Assembly (NCBI GenBank): GCA_021208685.1
Contig: JAJOJJ010000032.1
Span: 1 to 64,000 of the forward strand
Source: Saccharospirillaceae bacterium
Lineage (GTDB): Bacteria > Pseudomonadota > Gammaproteobacteria > Pseudomonadales > Oceanobacteraceae
Length of the DNA stretch: 64,000 nt
Direction of reading: 5' to 3'
The translations under genes and the position numbers were made by a program. This document shows, piece by piece, positions 55,373 to 62,565 of the stretch; positions within the stretch are counted from its first letter, which is position 1, and every line of letters starts with the position of its first letter. Below the pieces are notes generated by a model. That model made no database searches. It was not told the DNA's origin and saw nothing but the letters and a program-made list of their open reading frames with translations.

Positions 55373-56413
55373 TCAGGCAAACAACAGGCGTTGTTTGCTG
55401 TCACTGGGAGTCAGGCCCGACCAGCGTTTGAATGCACGGCGGAAATTGGTGGTGTCATTAAAATTCAGATAATGCGCCACCTGTTCATTGGTCCAGCCAT
55501 TAATATGAAATAAATACAGACAGACATGCAGCCGTGTCTGATCCTGCAACTGCTGAAAGTGGCAATGGTGCTTTTGCAGTTTCCGCTTAAAGGTTGCCGG
55601 GCTCATGGCAAAAGCCTGAGCCACTTCAGTCAGACTCTGCGGTGCACGCAACTGCTGAGTCAGATAGTGGTACACCGCCTCATTAAATCCCTGCATGGGC
55701 AATGTCCCGCTGACCTGTTGCTGAGCTTCACGCAAAGCGACCTGAAATGCGGTTGCAGAACCGCGTGGCCAGGCTTTTTTCAGCCAGTGCTTTTCAATCA
55801 TCATCACATCCACACCCAGAGAAAAGTGCAGATCCGGCCCCAGATACACCTGATACTGTTCATCCTTCTTTGGCTGCGCATAGCTGAAACCGTAACGCCA
55901 GGGCAAGGACTCCTGCGCCAGCCAACGGCTCATCGCCGTCAGGCCAGTCATCGCAGTTTCTACCATAAAACGCCGCTCATCCTGCACACCACAGGCGTCC
56001 AGCCACTGCACGTAACAATAGCGTTCATCCTGATAAATACGCGGAACCAGCAGCGGCGATAAAAAACGCCGGTAATCAATCAGCGTTTGTAAAGCGCGTT
56101 CAAGATCCGGAGCGTGCGCGAGAAGCTGACTGAAAACCCCATAATGTCCCGGCCACAGGCTGCTTCCCCAGCGAAAACTCAGATCATCGTCAGGTAATAA
56201 TTTTACGCCGTTGGTGATCAGCTGTTGCAATTGCGCCGGAGAAATAAAATGACTGCCGGTGAGAATATCGTCATAAAACAGTCCGCTGCCGCGCAATATT
56301 TTATGGCTGGAAATATCACGCGCCAGCAGCAGATCAATCAGCAAAGCCGGCTGATGGTGAGCGGCTATCATCCGCTCGTCGCGTTCATACCAGCGACCGG
56401 GGTTCATCGTCAT
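55373..56413 (-). CDS. AraC-family transcriptional regulator
   Basis: A 346-residue regulator with an N-terminal Arabinose_bd-like domain of the OruR/ArgR type (about 20-205) and a C-terminal double HTH (about 245-340) with AFAMSPATFKRKLQKH and the closing FNDTTNFRRAFKRWSGLTPS. The ligand is unknown. Its ATG overlaps the stop of the upstream GGDEF gene (ATGA), so both are made from one transcript that starts beside a Pho-box-like site. cti lies downstream, convergent. Confidence 0.9.
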   Translation of the reverse strand: MTMNPGRWYERDERMIAAHHQPALLIDLLLARDISSHKILRGSGLFYDDILTGSHFISPAQLQQLITNGVKLLPDDDLSFRWGSSLWPGHYGVFSQLLAHAPDLERALQTLIDYRRFLSPLLVPRIYQDERYCYVQWLDACGVQDERRFMVETAMTGLTAMSRWLAQESLPWRYGFSYAQPKKDEQYQVYLGPDLHFSLGVDVMMIEKHWLKKAWPRGSATAFQVALREAQQQVSGTLPMQGFNEAVYHYLTQQLRAPQSLTEVAQAFAMSPATFKRKLQKHHCHFQQLQDQTRLHVCLYLFHINGWTNEQVAHYLNFNDTTNFRRAFKRWSGLTPSDSKQRLLFA

Positions 56414-57321
56414 GCCGCCAGAAAGCAGCGTTGCTGATGCTGTGCGGTCAGCAACGCCTGATTAACCCGCTCAATGCTTTGTGCAGGCAGATCACCGGGA
56501 CGACACTCTGTCAGACCAATGCTGATGCGCTGATACAGCGTCTCACCGCTGTGGCTGTGCTTAAAGGCAAAATGCCGTACGGCCAGCTCCAGCTCATGCG
56601 CCAGTTGCAATGCAGCCTCTCCCGGTGTTCCGGGTAACAGCAAGGCAAAACGATCACCGGCGTAACGGCAGATAAGATCGCTCTGACGCAGATTCAGCAA
56701 CAGAATTTCAGCAATTTCACGCACCAGACGATCGCCTTCCCGGTGGCCGAAACGGCGGTTAACCGCGCTGAAGTCGTTAATATCGACCATCATCAGCGTC
56801 ATCGGCTGGCAACTGTTTAAATGCTGCTGTAACTGTTCTTTTAGATAATCCGCACGCCCAAGCTGAGTCAGACCATCAATAAAGCGATGCTCACGGAATA
56901 AGCGTTCACGCTTGGCCAGCTGACGGTTAATCGACAACTGTTCACTGTGCCAGTGGAATAATCCATAGGTTAATAAAGCAATACCGAAAGGCATCGCCAC
57001 CGATTCCAGCCAGGCATCCCACCATTGTTCGGCCGGGATACGGATAAATTCATCCAGGTTATCCTGCCACATCGCCAGAAAGATGAAACCCAGCCCCAGG
57101 GTTAACAGATCGGTCACACGCCCCGCCGGGCGACTGCCCAGAATCAGCAACATCCAGATGGCCACCGCCACCGCACTGCCGCCTTCCCCTAAAACATCCA
57201 GCCAGTCAATCTCGCGCCAGTGTTTGGCATCACCGACCAGCGTTGAGGCAATAACCGATCCCAGCGCCAGACCAAAAATCAGGAACAATTTACGGCGGTG
57301 TAAAAATAAGGTGGAAAACAT
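56410..57321 (-). CDS. membrane GGDEF protein with degenerate active site
   Basis: 303 residues. Membrane segments lie near residues 10-30, 48-62, 68-85 and 108-124, followed by a GGDEF domain (about 145-300). The signature reads AGDRF (221-225): Gly to Ala and, more seriously, catalytic Glu to Arg. The I-site RxxD (Arg212-Asp215) and the first metal Asp (180) remain. It may therefore bind c-di-GMP as a sensor rather than make it. It is coupled to the AraC gene and has a Pho-box-like repeat about 50 bases upstream. Confidence 0.88.
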   Translation of the reverse strand: MFSTLFLHRRKLFLIFGLALGSVIASTLVGDAKHWREIDWLDVLGEGGSAVAVAIWMLLILGSRPAGRVTDLLTLGLGFIFLAMWQDNLDEFIRIPAEQWWDAWLESVAMPFGIALLTYGLFHWHSEQLSINRQLAKRERLFREHRFIDGLTQLGRADYLKEQLQQHLNSCQPMTLMMVDINDFSAVNRRFGHREGDRLVREIAEILLLNLRQSDLICRYAGDRFALLLPGTPGEAALQLAHELELAVRHFAFKHSHSGETLYQRISIGLTECRPGDLPAQSIERVNQALLTAQHQQRCFLAA

Positions 57322-57368
57322 AAACAGCCATTCTCAGAAATAATGCCGGGCATAACTAACAGGGCTTT

Positions 57369-57386
57369 ATGACAGAAACATGACAA
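57369..57386 (-). promoter_or_regulatory. Pho box facing the GGDEF-AraC operon
   Basis: On the minus strand: TTGTCAT, 4-base spacer GTTT, CTGTCAT. The Pho box is two CTGTCAt repeats with a 4-base spacer; 13 of 14 repeat bases fit. Its near end is about 48 bases before the GGDEF ATG. Confidence 0.65.
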
Positions 57387-57616
57387 GCAGCCATTCGGCA
57401 ATGAATCACTCCGGGGGTCAATTCAGCTCAGTCATGAGAGACACTTTTTTTAAGCCACCCCTGAATAATTCAGCGGTTTTCCAGCAACACACTGCCGTGC
57501 CTGCCGCGCTTGCCTGATGGTTGGCTCGGGTTGAGCTTTCAGCCAAGGGTTAAATCAGATCATTACCGGGCTGAAAACACGGTCTGAGCGCTGTTTCAGA
57601 GCCCATTCCCGAACAT

Positions 57617-57634
57617 CTGTCACAGAAACGTCAC
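57617..57634 (+). promoter_or_regulatory. Pho box facing the receptor-phytase genes
   Basis: CTGTCAC, AGAA, ACGTCAC: a first half with a full consensus match (CTGTCAY) and a second with two mismatches, at exact Pho spacing. It lies 113 bases before the receptor ATG. A further CCGTCAC at 57647 is out of phase. Confidence 0.6.
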
Positions 57635-57747
57635 ATGCTCTTTCTACCGTCACGCCACCTGTTGCCCACCAGAGCCTGTCGACACTGATCAAACAGTCTC
57701 TGGGGCAGATATAAAAACGATCGATCAAGAACGACATGGAGACGAGC

Positions 57748-60489
57748 ATGAATTTTTGCATTAAGCCACTGGCGGCGGTCATAGCCCTGAGCTGTGCGGC
57801 ACTGGCTCAGGCTGATGGCAGCCTCGAAGGCCGGGTCAGCGACACCCAGAATCAAACCGTATACAGCGGCGCCGTAATCCGCCTGGAAATGCCGGGTAAC
57901 AGCAACATGAGCCGTGAAGTGCTGGCCAGCAAAGGCGGCCGTTTCCGTTTACCGCAGGTTCCGGCCGGTGATTACCTGCTGAGCGCGGTCGTCGGCGGTA
58001 AGACCGTTGACAGCCGCACCATCACCATCCGCGATGGCGAAACCCTGACCGCCAATATTGTGCTCAACAACCAGCAGCAAGACGTGGAAGAAATTCTGGT
58101 CATTGGTCAGGCAGCACAGATGCAGCGCGCTCTTGACCGCCAGCGTTACGCCGACAACATGATCAGCGTCATTAATGCCGATGCCATCGGACAATTGCCG
58201 GATGCCAACGCCGCTGAAGCCTTGCAACGGGTACCGGGTTTATCCATCGAGCGTGATCAGGGTGAAGGCCGTTTTGTCCGCATCCGTGGCATCAGCTCTG
58301 ATTTAAACAGCGTCAGCGTAAACGGCACGCAAATTCCGGCACCGGAAGCAGGCAGCCGCTCCGTCGCTCTCGACGTTATTCCATCCAACCTGCTCAGCTC
58401 TCTGGTCGTTACCAAAACCCTGACACCCGACATGGATGCCAACGCCATTGGTGGTGCGGTTGAAATTAACAGCATTTCCGCACTCGACCGCGAAGGCGCC
58501 TTTTATTCCGCGTCGACCCAGCTGAGCTATGACGAGCAAAGCGAACAAACCAATCCGGCCTATTCCGTTGCCGGTGGCAATACCTTTGATTTCGGCGACG
58601 ACCGCCGCCTGGGGGTTGCCGCAGCGCTGAGTTTTGATAACCGCAAATTCGGTTCCGACAACGTTGAGACCGGCGGCGCCTGGGATTTTGAAGACGGTGC
58701 CAAACTTGAAGAGATGGAACAGCGGGAATACAGCATTGAACGTGAGCGTATTGGTGCCGCCCTGAACCTGGATTACGAGCACGGCGTTAATCACAGTTTT
58801 TATATGCACAACCTGTACAGCAAATTCAGCGACAGCGAACAGCGGCTTGCCACGACAACCGAATTTGCCGATGCCATTGCCATCGGTGAAAGCAGCGATG
58901 CTGAAGTTATCCGTTCATTAAAAGACCGGGAAGAAACACAAAAAATCATGTCATCCACACTGGGTGCCATGCATTTCCTCGGTGACTGGACCATCGAATA
59001 CAAAGCCGGTCTCAGCAAAGCCTCCGAAGATGAACCGGACAGCATTGGTGGCGCCGATTTTGTCAGCACAGATGACATTACCGGCCTCAGTTTCAGCAAC
59101 AGCCGTCAGCCGCGCATCAATGCACCGGCTGCTTTCTATGATGCTGCGCAATACGAACTGGATGAAATTGAACGCGGCCGCAGCATGACCGAAGACAAAC
59201 AAACCATGGTGCAGCTGGATATCACCCGTGATTTTGATCTGGCCGAATACCCTGCGCTGGTGAAACTGGGTGCCAAAAGCCAGAAGCGTGAAAAAACTCA
59301 GGACGTTGATACCTGGAAATACAAAGACCTGTCAGAAGACAGCTCGGTTTCCATGAGCGATTTCGCCACCGGCGAGCGTGATTACAGCCTGGGACGTTTC
59401 GGCCCGGGAATTTCCGTGAATAAAGTCCGCAATCTGATGGCCACTCTGGATCGTGCCGATGCCTTTGATGAGGAAGATTCAACGCTGGAAGATTACGACA
59501 TCAACGAAGACATCAATGCCGGTTACCTGATGGGCCGTATTGATGCCGACGAACTGCGGGTAATTGCCGGTGTGCGTTATGAGCAAACCAACATCAGCGC
59601 AAAGGGTAATGCCCTGAATCAGAGCGACGAACTGGTCACCGTTAAAAATGACAAAGACTACAGCCACGTTCTGCCATCCGTACAGGCACGCTGGCAGCTG
59701 GCCGACAGCACTCAGGTGCGTGCCGCCTGGACCAATGCCGTCGTTCGTCCGACCTTTGAACAGATGCGTCCTAATTTTACCGATGACGGCAGCGAAGCAG
59801 AGCTGGGCAACCCGGAACTGAAGGCACTGGAAGCGGCTAACTTCGACCTGGGTATTGAACACTTTATGGGCAGTGCCGGTACCGTGTCGGCCTTCCTGTT
59901 CCGCAAAAATATCGACAATTTCATCTACGAAACCGATCTGGCAGGCTCTGCGGAATATGCGGCCTATGACGAAGTGATCACCTACCGTAATGGCGATCAG
60001 GCAACACTGAATGGTCTGGAACTGGCATTTTCCCACAAGCTGGAAATGTTACCGGCACCCTTCAATGGATTACTGCTTGCCGCCAACACCACCTTTACCC
60101 GTTCAGATGCAACCGTATCGGGTTATGACAGCGGCACCCTGCTGCAGCGTGATATCAGCCTGCCTAATCAATCAGACCTCACCGGTAACTTTATTATCGG
60201 TTACGAGAACGAGCGTCTGAGCATGCGTCTGGCAACCAACTATAAATCGGAATATCTGGCCGAAGTCGGCAATCTGGAAAACAGCCAGGGCGATGTTTAC
60301 CAAAGCGCCCAGACCCAGCTCGATTTTAATGCCTCTTATAAAATGACCGAACAACTGAAACTCAGTTTTGAAGTCGCCAACATCACCGACGAACCGTATT
60401 ACACCTACGTCAACAAAGAACGCTACAACGCACAGTATGAAGACTACGGTCCGACCTACCGTGTGGGTATCAGTTACACCAGTTTCTGA
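57748..60489 (+). CDS. TonB-dependent receptor, phytase-linked
   Basis: A 913-residue outer-membrane receptor. A signal peptide (cleaved near AQADG) is followed by a carboxypeptidase-regulatory-like beta domain (about 25-108), a TonB box region VEEILVIG (113-120), the plug domain (about 125-250, with RVPGLSIERDQG and VRIRG), and a 22-strand barrel ending in Phe (GISYTSF). This layout matches TonB receptors for phosphorylated or complex substrates. The start at 57748 has a GGAG; an ATG 12 bases earlier is weaker. The phytase gene downstream suggests phytate or its products as ligand. Confidence 0.9.
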   Translation: MNFCIKPLAAVIALSCAALAQADGSLEGRVSDTQNQTVYSGAVIRLEMPGNSNMSREVLASKGGRFRLPQVPAGDYLLSAVVGGKTVDSRTITIRDGETLTANIVLNNQQQDVEEILVIGQAAQMQRALDRQRYADNMISVINADAIGQLPDANAAEALQRVPGLSIERDQGEGRFVRIRGISSDLNSVSVNGTQIPAPEAGSRSVALDVIPSNLLSSLVVTKTLTPDMDANAIGGAVEINSISALDREGAFYSASTQLSYDEQSEQTNPAYSVAGGNTFDFGDDRRLGVAAALSFDNRKFGSDNVETGGAWDFEDGAKLEEMEQREYSIERERIGAALNLDYEHGVNHSFYMHNLYSKFSDSEQRLATTTEFADAIAIGESSDAEVIRSLKDREETQKIMSSTLGAMHFLGDWTIEYKAGLSKASEDEPDSIGGADFVSTDDITGLSFSNSRQPRINAPAAFYDAAQYELDEIERGRSMTEDKQTMVQLDITRDFDLAEYPALVKLGAKSQKREKTQDVDTWKYKDLSEDSSVSMSDFATGERDYSLGRFGPGISVNKVRNLMATLDRADAFDEEDSTLEDYDINEDINAGYLMGRIDADELRVIAGVRYEQTNISAKGNALNQSDELVTVKNDKDYSHVLPSVQARWQLADSTQVRAAWTNAVVRPTFEQMRPNFTDDGSEAELGNPELKALEAANFDLGIEHFMGSAGTVSAFLFRKNIDNFIYETDLAGSAEYAAYDEVITYRNGDQATLNGLELAFSHKLEMLPAPFNGLLLAANTTFTRSDATVSGYDSGTLLQRDISLPNQSDLTGNFIIGYENERLSMRLATNYKSEYLAEVGNLENSQGDVYQSAQTQLDFNASYKMTEQLKLSFEVANITDEPYYTYVNKERYNAQYEDYGPTYRVGISYTSF

Positions 60490-60606: not shown

Positions 60607-62565
60607 ATGACTAAACAAACCATGAACAGCACGCTGAGTGCAGCCACCCTTTCGCTGTTGCTTACCGCCTGCAGCGGTCAGGACATTCCCGATCACACCG
60701 GGCAGCAGCAGCGCCAGCCTTCAGCAACCCTGACCGCCAGCCCATTGTCTGTCGGCGGTGAACAGGCACTGCTGCCTGACGGCGACAACACCGTGCTCAG
60801 CGCCGGACCAGACAGCGGTATTCAACTGCACCGTCAAGAAGCGGATGGCCGTTTAACCCTGCTGGATAAAAAGGACATTCCGGCTGAATTTATCGATCAG
60901 CGTCGTGATCAGCTGGGCACGCTGTTTGTCAGTATCGATCAGGAAAATAATCGCCCGGTCAGCTATCGCATTCATAACCAGCGCATTACCGATCTGGCTT
61001 TTGGTCAGCCTCTGACCTACCCAATTGAAGGCATCTGTCTGTATCAGCCGGCCGGATCACCCTTGCAGTTATTTGTACTCGACGAGCAACAAATGGCGCA
61101 CCAGTTGCTGATTAAAAGCAACGGCAGCGAATTAACCCAACAGGAAATCCGCCGTTTTCCGTTGCCACCCAACAGTGAATATTGCGTGGTCGATGATATC
61201 AGCGAGCAGCTGTTTGTCAGCGAAGAGAATGTTGGCGTCTGGGCCTATAACGCCCGCGCAGAAAGTGAAGTGAGCCGACAGGTGGTTGATCTGGTGCAGC
61301 CGTGGGGGCAACTGCATCACAACAGTGGCCCGTTAGCCATCAGTCAGGGGCAACTTTTTATTGCCGAACTGGGCAGCAATATTCTGCACCACTATCCGTT
61401 ACCACAAGCAGGCAGCTCGCAGACAACAGGGGCTGGTCGCGCGGTTATTCTTGACCAGTCACTGGCCGCCGACAGCCTGCGTACCGCCATTAACGGCGAT
61501 GGTACAACCCGCCTGATTATTCTGGATGATGACAGCAGCCAGTTATTCAGCAGCAATATTCAGTTGCCACAACAGGCACGCAAGCAGGACGGCATTCCTA
61601 ATATCGCAGCCCGTGCAGAAACCATACCCGTGCGCAAAACCGGCGATGCTGCCGATGATCCGGCCATCTGGGTAAATACTCACACCGCGGAAAACAGCCG
61701 TATTTTAGGCACCAATAAAAAATTCGGTCTTTATGTTTATGACCTTCAGGGTCAGGAGCTGCAGGAACTGCAGGCCGGACGGGTGAATAATGTCGATATC
61801 CGCCAGGGATTTACCTTTAAAAACCAGCCGGCGGATATTGCCGCAGCCAGCCAGCGTGACCGCCAGGCAATTGCCTTATTCCATATTGACCCAATGAGCG
61901 GACATGTCAGTGCCACCACAGAAATTTCCACCACACTGGATAATGTCTATGGCCTGTGCATGTATAAAAACCGCAAAGAGCAGATCTTTGTTTTTATTAA
62001 CGATGAAGACGGACGCTTTGAACAATATGAAATTACCGACTCGGCCAATGGCTGGCGTGGCAAAAAGGTGCGCGAATTCCGTGTGAATTCCCAACCGGAA
62101 GGCTGTGCTGCTGATGATATAAAACATCAGTTATTCCTCGGCGAAGAAAATGTCGCCATCTGGACTATTGGCGCCGAAGCCGATGCCGGAACAACGCTGA
62201 CTCAGCTTGCAGCAGCCTCCGACATGTTGGTCGCCGATATCGAAGGGATGGATATTTACCGTAACGAAAAAGAAGCCTATCTGGTCGTTTCCAGCCAGGG
62301 GAACGACAGCTACGTGCTTTATCAGGCCGAGGCACCCTATGACTATATTGGCCGCTTCCGCGTGGGCATTAATGCTGAAAAAGGCATTGATGGTGCTTCC
62401 GAAACCGATGGCCTGACCGTTACTTCAGCCAATCTGGGCGCGGACTACCCACAAGGTATGCTGGTTGTGCAGGATGGCCGTAATTTCCTGCCGGAAGAGA
62501 ATCAGAATTTTAAATATGTAAACTGGCAGGATATTCAGGCGCTGATGCAGAGAAAACAGCCCTGA
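60607..62565 (+). CDS. two-domain beta-propeller phytase lipoprotein
   Basis: A 652-residue lipoprotein (lipobox LTAC, Cys22). Residues 340-650 are a beta-propeller phytase (3-phytase) domain: GDAADDPAIWVN (346-357), GTNKKFGLYVYDL, GRVNNVDIR, and DIEGMDIY near 544. It is Ca-dependent and releases phosphate from phytate. Residues 45-320 are a diverged copy: CVVDDISEQLFVSEENVGVW (193-212) repeats CAADDIKHQLFLGEENVAIW (500-519), but the DDPAIW part is lost. Two-domain phytases of this kind are known. It follows the TonB receptor gene. Confidence 0.93.
   Translation: MTKQTMNSTLSAATLSLLLTACSGQDIPDHTGQQQRQPSATLTASPLSVGGEQALLPDGDNTVLSAGPDSGIQLHRQEADGRLTLLDKKDIPAEFIDQRRDQLGTLFVSIDQENNRPVSYRIHNQRITDLAFGQPLTYPIEGICLYQPAGSPLQLFVLDEQQMAHQLLIKSNGSELTQQEIRRFPLPPNSEYCVVDDISEQLFVSEENVGVWAYNARAESEVSRQVVDLVQPWGQLHHNSGPLAISQGQLFIAELGSNILHHYPLPQAGSSQTTGAGRAVILDQSLAADSLRTAINGDGTTRLIILDDDSSQLFSSNIQLPQQARKQDGIPNIAARAETIPVRKTGDAADDPAIWVNTHTAENSRILGTNKKFGLYVYDLQGQELQELQAGRVNNVDIRQGFTFKNQPADIAAASQRDRQAIALFHIDPMSGHVSATTEISTTLDNVYGLCMYKNRKEQIFVFINDEDGRFEQYEITDSANGWRGKKVREFRVNSQPEGCAADDIKHQLFLGEENVAIWTIGAEADAGTTLTQLAAASDMLVADIEGMDIYRNEKEAYLVVSSQGNDSYVLYQAEAPYDYIGRFRVGINAEKGIDGASETDGLTVTSANLGADYPQGMLVVQDGRNFLPEENQNFKYVNWQDIQALMQRKQP

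Follow-up and report, generated by a model that had tools for sequence, protein, structure and literature searches.

Locus Organization

The window, i.e., the whole stretch of 64,000 nt that was analysed, carries on its minus strand the genes of a membrane protein with a degenerate GGDEF domain (pseudo-GGDEF protein; 303 aa, 56410-57321) and of an AraC-family regulator (346 aa, 55373-56413). The two ORFs overlap by ATGA, in agreement with the earlier note. On the plus strand, the genes of a TonB-dependent receptor (57736-60489; TIGR01782) and a beta-propeller phytase (60607-62565; PF02333) follow. A fatty acid cis/trans isomerase gene (PF06934, 52829-55333) is convergent with the AraC gene, and its homologue adjoins the pair in several close relatives too. 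A gene for an Hsp70-like protein (match to PF00012, 62604-63983) is convergent with the phytase gene.

The intergenic region between the divergent genes has two predicted promoters. The one of the pair consists of the Pho box TTGTCATGTTTCTGTCAT (57369-57386, minus strand) and, 10 bp beyond it, a -10-like hexamer TAGTTA (57353-57358). With 13 of 14 bases matching the Pho-box consensus, the left-facing repeat claimed previously was found there. The promoter of the TonB-phytase genes is of the same build, with the Pho box CTGTCACAGAAACGTCAC (57617-57634, plus strand, 12/14) and the hexamer TACCGT (57645-57650), again at 10 bp. Two proposed AraC boxes lie between the Pho boxes, both on the plus strand: O1, GGGTCAATTCAGCTCA, at 57415-57430, and O2, GGGTTAAATCAGATCA, at 57547-57562, 132 bp from O1.

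Conservation of the Gene Pair

A scan for the GGDEF protein, with one genome per species, gave 248 related stretches. Among the best 80 of these 248, the AraC gene follows directly on the same strand in 80/80 loci; the scan used six patterns, of which CRYAGDRF favours degenerate members. In 16 of the 80, there is a 4-nt overlap between the GGDEF stop and a start codon in the AraC frame. All four genes (GGDEF, AraC, TonB, and phytase) lie within the available DNA in 71 of the loci. Cultured carriers of the pair include Oceanobacter kriegii DSM 6294 (L045) and Cellvibrio mixtus J3-8 (L059). Among the remaining nine, six are cut by contig ends on that side (L048, L054, L056, L071, L083, and L096), L113 has the phytase without TonB, and in L072 and L075 the pair is unlinked. 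The pseudo-GGDEF and AraC genes are thus confirmed as a conserved gene pair, which is a larger pattern than the earlier note stated. The phytase of L113 and the TonB receptor of L160 (11369-13876, two ORFs) are broken into ORFs, possibly by decay or assembly error.

The Pseudo-GGDEF Protein

The GGDEF domain (PF00990) covers residues 148-298. Its motif is AGDRF (residues 221-225; 56647-56661, minus strand) in place of GG[D/E]EF, and the catalytic Glu expected at position 4 of an active diguanylate cyclase is missing. The tetrapeptide RQSD (residues 212-215; 56677-56688, minus strand) has the RxxD form of the I-site in degenerate GGDEF receptors of c-di-GMP, and would be suited to the same role. 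A ruined A-site combined with an intact I-site, as described earlier, is therefore what the protein has.

The conservation of these sites was followed in an alignment of 108 rows, composed of the 80 loci of the scan, the window, and 27 rows from an AraC query, 13 of which repeat scan sequences over the last 200 residues. Over these 200 residues, 95 of the 108 rows are distinct, and 60 representatives are left at 75% identity. Motif residue 4 is Arg in 108/108 homologues and in 60/60 representatives; the Glu that it replaces is the metal-binding one, Glu371 of PleD. Residue 1 is Ala in 105/108 (58/60 representatives), and the Arg and Asp of the I-site are each retained in 106/108 (58/60). The nucleotide pocket is partly retained, with Asp180 in 92/108, Asn188 in 82/108, and Asp197 in 103/108. 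In later surveys, 21 of 24 pair loci were readable; the ORF step missed L135, L136, and L138. Arg at motif residue 4 was present in 20 of these 21 (Cys in L147), and RxxD in 18 of 21, with alterations in L183, L185, and L148. Together with L031 and L032, these are the loci with a lost or altered I-site.

The membrane half of the protein is encoded at 56887-57321 (minus strand). The AF2 model, computed from an alignment of 66 sequences, has helices at residues 2-29, 40-63, 68-89, and 100-145, followed by the GGDEF domain. Mean pLDDT is 92.5 and pTM 0.64, so that the relative orientation of the two halves is uncertain. An N-in topology fits the loop charges: the loops TM1-2 and TM3-4 are acidic, and the loop TM2-3 and the stretch after TM4 are basic. 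Residues D42, E46, R64, D87, D90, E106, and E127 are invariant across the 108 aligned rows. No Pfam family matched the membrane half of the window protein at E up to 1, and it does not qualify as a MASE or 7TMR-DISM domain; the membrane halves of 40 members gave scattered weak matches alone, the best at E 0.001. A Foldseek search against PDB was uninformative on this domain because the 50 matches listed of 551 were all GGDEF-containing proteins.

Weak matches to the membrane domain were also found outside the pair. Two in G742 and one in G568 were rejected as pair members, being cyclases with intact GGEEF and no adjoining AraC gene in the stretches read, and so was the match in G514, a histidine kinase likewise without an adjoining AraC gene in the stretch read. 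Weakly related membrane domains with a D..DE-type motif were seen in L150 (7592-8497), L151 (8104-9018), L153 (7958-8857), and L152 (5407-7731). Possibly, such domains on intact-GGEEF cyclases and a histidine kinase represent a wider sensor domain that has no name yet.

The AraC-Family Regulator

The second protein of the pair has the two-HTH DNA-binding domain of the AraC/XylS family (PF12833, HTH_18, E 7.3e-14) and an Arabinose_bd domain (PF12625, E 5.6e-23), and its AF2 model has pLDDT 95.0 and pTM 0.93. This is the sole DNA-binding family detected in the pair. The protein stayed below the NCBIfam equivalog cut-offs of QhpR (104.4 of 250 bits), CypR (97.9 of 500), and GliR (85.5 of 570). 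The AraC profile had matches at E<=1e-50 in 46 of the 135 genomes of an order sample. The GGDEF partner was present in 13/13 genomes with a match at E<=2.4e-69, and the next four matches checked (G054, G833, G883, and G835) are without it. The AraC proteins of G054 and G833 were rejected as orthologues, as these genomes gave no GGDEF profile match and the fetched stretches had no phytase or TonB gene.

Co-Occurrence with Phytase

The search for co-occurrence with phytase and TonB loci proposed in the earlier note was carried out with a profile of the membrane half (A1) and with phytase PF02333 over the same genomes, so that loci were not hand-picked. In the sample of relatives, A1 was found in 28/55 and phytase in 31/55 genomes, and all 28 A1 genomes have phytase. 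Of the 34 genomes that belong to the family of the window, A1 and phytase are both present in 27 and both absent in seven. In the class sample, A1 is present in 4/369 and phytase in 10/369, with phytase in 4/4 of the A1 genomes. The phylum sample has A1 (E<1e-30) in 20/398, phytase in 42/398, and both in 19, a count which omits four weaker A1 matches (E 1e-7 to 1e-10) in three phytase-less genomes, treated as paralogues. The three surveys pooled give 49 distinct pair-bearing genomes, 48 of them with phytase, and in 47 the distance from GGDEF to phytase is up to about 7 kb. In G007 the two genes are on two contigs, one of which (L171) begins just ahead of the boxes described below. The lone phytase-less genome is G768, where the genes divergent to the pair are those of a TonB receptor and a metallophosphoesterase.

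According to the earlier note, its hypothesis would have to be given up if the pair occurred elsewhere without phosphate genes and without the Pho-like site, and no such case was seen among the 49 genomes. A general module without a phosphate link is excluded by these surveys and by the distant phytase operons of the unlinked genomes. L072 and L075 are not counter-examples, since each of these genomes has a phytase operon with the same boxes elsewhere. Phytase without the pair exists as well, in 23 of the 42 phytase genomes at phylum level, and the pair is accordingly an extra layer.

Metallophosphoesterase (acid-phosphatase-like) genes were noted in L086 (5890-6879), L167 (10999-11970), L168 (11019-11990), and L149 (12979-14445). 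Such genes are inserted in the TonB operon or replace the phytase gene; in L086, L167, and L168 they lie between TonB and phytase. The phytases adjoining the pair have long frames of 584-779 aa, and many pair-less phytases are short, of about 360-420 aa; apparently, the pair accompanies two-domain phytases.

Pho Boxes and Promoters

Seven Pho-box sites with up to one mismatch were found in the 4.0 Mb genome of the window. Besides the site of the pair's promoter, one of the seven is located about 50 bp upstream of a gene of family PBP_like_2, which by our reading is PstS-like. The other five have no obvious phosphate gene downstream, and a single Pho site is for this reason weak as proof. A chance Pho box is ruled out by comparison across species: of 73 homologous intergenic regions, 64 had a best score of 11/14 or more, vs. 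5.8% of dinucleotide shuffles, and the other nine had no Pho box of 11/14. At 12/14 or better, a box was present in 30 of 48 non-redundant regions, and among controls in the same 48 regions the reversed, two scrambled, and two wrong-spacing patterns gave 0-3 and an inverted-repeat pattern 10. Most loci have two divergent Pho boxes, one per promoter.

On the TonB side, the positions 10 bp past the Pho box are conserved as T (0.88) and A (0.97), with the hexamer-final T at 0.84. On the pair side, A is conserved at 0.91, and the other bases are weaker. A Pho box followed at 10 bp by a -10 hexamer is the layout of a PhoB promoter. Judged by promoter Pho boxes conserved among relatives, both operons would belong to the Pho regulon, though in L072 and L075, the two genomes with an unlinked pair, these boxes are weak or out of position. 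An identical 17-mer, TGTCATAAAAAATTCAT, occurs in six intergenic regions (L042, L044, L045, L065, L072, and L075), in one orientation in four loci and in the opposite one in two; it resembles a variant Pho-type site.

A Conserved 16-bp Box

A 16-bp word, GGGTCAWWTYRGCTCA, is recurrent in many regions of the promoter alignment. To limit circularity, a matrix of this box was trained on 29 Alteromonadales loci alone and tested on other clades by where its best match fell along the full length of each locus (about 7-21 kb, or 64 kb in the case of the window). In 41 of the 45 loci held out, this match was intergenic, vs. 0.8 expected by length; success per clade was 15/15, 13/13, 8/9, 5/6, and 0/2, the last being Acinetobacter-type loci. 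With 30 random seeds and the same training, the median was 7/45. Nine seeds reached 22-41, of which seven converged on the 16-bp box and two on the Pho box. With the final matrix, the best match of the locus is in the intergenic region in 74/74 cases, training members included. A pattern of the window-type box has two perfect matches in the 4.0 Mb genome, both at this locus, two sites with one mismatch, and 22 with two mismatches. The reversed pattern gave no match, and as it differs in dinucleotides this was not used as evidence.

A second copy above 9 bits on the same strand was found in 63 of the 74 regions and an opposite-strand match in three. Distances between the boxes cluster at 85-87, 98-100, 107-111, 119, 130-132, 142-144, and 151-153 bp, and values of 66, 95, 149, 182, and 191 lie outside. 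The period of about 10.75 bp (42 non-redundant loci) exceeds 2000/2000 jitter trials, and for unique spacings p is 0.002. The box nearest to TonB is 32, 42-43, 53-54, 64-65, or 74 bp from the TonB-side Pho box in 31 of 35 loci, with gaps of 14, 26, 151, and 163 in the other four. Periodicity relative to the Pho box, computed without the two outlier gaps (151 and 163), exceeds the jitter null for both O1 and O2. At cluster level p is 0.023 for O2 and 0.089 for O1, and the phasing of O1 is accordingly weak. O1 is upstream of the pair-side Pho box in most loci. In 11 Alteromonadales loci it coincides, at offset -39/-40, with the expected -10 of the promoter that drives the pair, a position that points to autorepression in these loci.

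The distribution of the box points to the AraC protein as the likely binder. In the two unlinked genomes (L072 and L075), the promoter of the pair has one box, and the distant TonB-phosphatase-phytase operon has two, 111 bp apart. In the four pair-less phytase loci inspected (L154, L155, L158, and L159; 64 kb), there was no match above 9 bits. Furthermore, the box variant GRGGCA of Cellvibrio and Gilvimarinus covaries with a Phe-to-Leu change in the last HTH helix pair of AraC (residue 324); this residue ranks first among the AraC columns and above every GGDEF column, and the covariation is supportive at most, as it comes from five loci of one clade. The box was in place at 20 bits or more in the untrained pair loci L149, L157, L160, L171, L182, and L183 and as a weaker match in L156 (13.9 bits) and L185 (12.4 bits); no box was in place in L169, which has the pair and phytase without TonB. 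From these sequence comparisons, the 16-bp box is a likely AraC operator.

Proposed Mechanism

The link of the pair to phosphate and phytate is well supported by the co-occurrence, the box data, and the Pho boxes, as far as genome comparison can tell. Probably, the pair is a dedicated local regulator of a phytate (phosphate-ester) uptake operon, layered on PhoB. Low phosphate would make both divergent operons available via PhoB, with the Pho boxes about 10 bp upstream of -10 serving both promoters. The AraC protein would sit on the direct 16-bp boxes O1 and O2, whose spacing to one another and to the TonB-side Pho box follows the helical turn; from there it may form a DNA loop and/or reach PhoB and RNA polymerase at the TonB promoter. 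The co-translated pseudo-GGDEF protein is predicted to make no c-di-GMP and would act as the switch protein that gates AraC, responding to c-di-GMP at the I-site and/or to a periplasmic cue at the acidic membrane face. This membrane partner would decide between an AraC loop and AraC beside PhoB, and the phytate genes would be on only when a second signal joins the phosphate shortage. Binding of c-di-GMP, contact between the two proteins, and the nature of the signal are what we infer here.

The hypothesis of the earlier note, in which phosphate starvation induces a c-di-GMP-binding membrane sensor that acts with the AraC protein on the phytate genes or on adhesion, stands in part. Co-occurrence, the Pho boxes of the two promoters, and an operator-like box that is shared even when the operons are unlinked all uphold the tie to phytate. 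Adhesion as a target received no support, as none of the locus genes seen points there.

A bolder proposal, tentative and rather less likely than not, is a new type of two-protein sensor, in which a membrane pseudo-diguanylate cyclase, equipped with an unnamed four-helix sensing domain, would respond to a periplasmic cue together with c-di-GMP and directly gate a DNA-looping AraC protein between two PhoB promoters. The cue is perhaps phytate, lower inositol phosphates, or their calcium, at the invariant acidic cluster. If so, the response to phosphate starvation would pass through a substrate-specific AND gate, and this would extend across Gamma- and Betaproteobacteria.

It is rather unlikely that AraC responds on its own to an inositol phosphate or breakdown product and regulates the phytate operon, with the pseudo-GGDEF protein being a co-induced c-di-GMP receptor for another process and no gate. 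The regulator does have a ligand-type N-terminal domain of its own, and the cis evidence all concerns AraC, but the GGDEF gene adjoins it in 80/80 loci, including the two genomes where both have left the phytase operon. Very improbable is a GGDEF protein that still alters the c-di-GMP pool by residual activity or in heterodimers with active cyclases and thereby directs phosphate starvation to adhesion or biofilm. The partly kept pocket (Asp180, Asn188, and Asp197) and the phosphate-controlled c-di-GMP signalling reported for Pseudomonas fluorescens (PMC3032545) would suit it; against it, the residue of the metal-binding Glu is Arg throughout the alignment, and the partner genes are those of phytate use, not adhesins. 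Least probable of all is a 16-bp box bound by another transcription factor that the pair merely accompanies, for although AraC as the binder rests on sequence and the covariation at residue 324 on five loci of one clade, the box is missing from 4/4 inspected pair-less phytase loci and occurs at both sites in the unlinked genomes, and no DNA-binding family other than AraC was detected in the pair.

Phytate accounts for an important share of stored organic phosphorus. With a dedicated regulator that is conserved and has a defined candidate operator, a second layer of control above PhoB becomes open to direct test, and the fixed Arg in the dead GGDEF site invites a structural explanation. The pair also suggests a route by which c-di-GMP-type proteins may control nutrient genes via an AraC partner.

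Comparison with Known Systems

As the earlier note supposed, no described system with this pairing was found in the open-access full-text literature (most subscription journals lie outside this coverage), and a GGDEF-AraC pair by phytate genes is apparently undescribed. The AraC protein of the arabinose operon binds direct-repeat sites at phased distances, compatible with DNA looping, and the window protein resembles it in its phased direct-repeat candidate sites; the match between the two is limited to the HTH and ligand-type domains. Unlike those of arabinose AraC, the sites here are flanked by a Pho-box promoter at either end, and a membrane pseudo-GGDEF protein accompanies the regulator. 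The RapA/LapD system of P. fluorescens reportedly has adhesin release as its output and not transcription via an AraC partner, as is proposed for the pair. There, low phosphate acts via a c-di-GMP pathway with an inner-membrane receptor (PMC3032545).

The AraC-type effectors CuxR and VfmE are described as binding c-di-GMP themselves via an RxxxR motif (PMC9045272). The present regulator would be like them in being tied to c-di-GMP, with the c-di-GMP-type site on a separate membrane protein instead. In Caulobacter, TonB receptors and phytase are listed in a PhoB regulon (PMC11208175), and the window TonB receptor and phytase likewise stand behind a Pho box; the terms AraC and GGDEF are absent from that paper.

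The nearest likeness on the GGDEF side is E. coli CdgI, which has a degenerate A-site, an intact I-site, and a membrane-type N-terminal domain, and binds c-di-GMP as purified protein (PMC5635695). The window protein shares the dead A-site, the kept I-site, and the presence of a membrane half, and differs in the sequence of its membrane domain, which has no Pfam match. In the same source, E. coli PdeR and DgcM are reported to contact the transcription factor MlrA directly; unlike the partner in the window, MlrA is not presented there as a linked AraC-type gene, and no phosphate genes are involved (PMC5635695). PdeR, DgcM, and MlrA are a precedent for proteins of the GGDEF family acting on a transcription factor.
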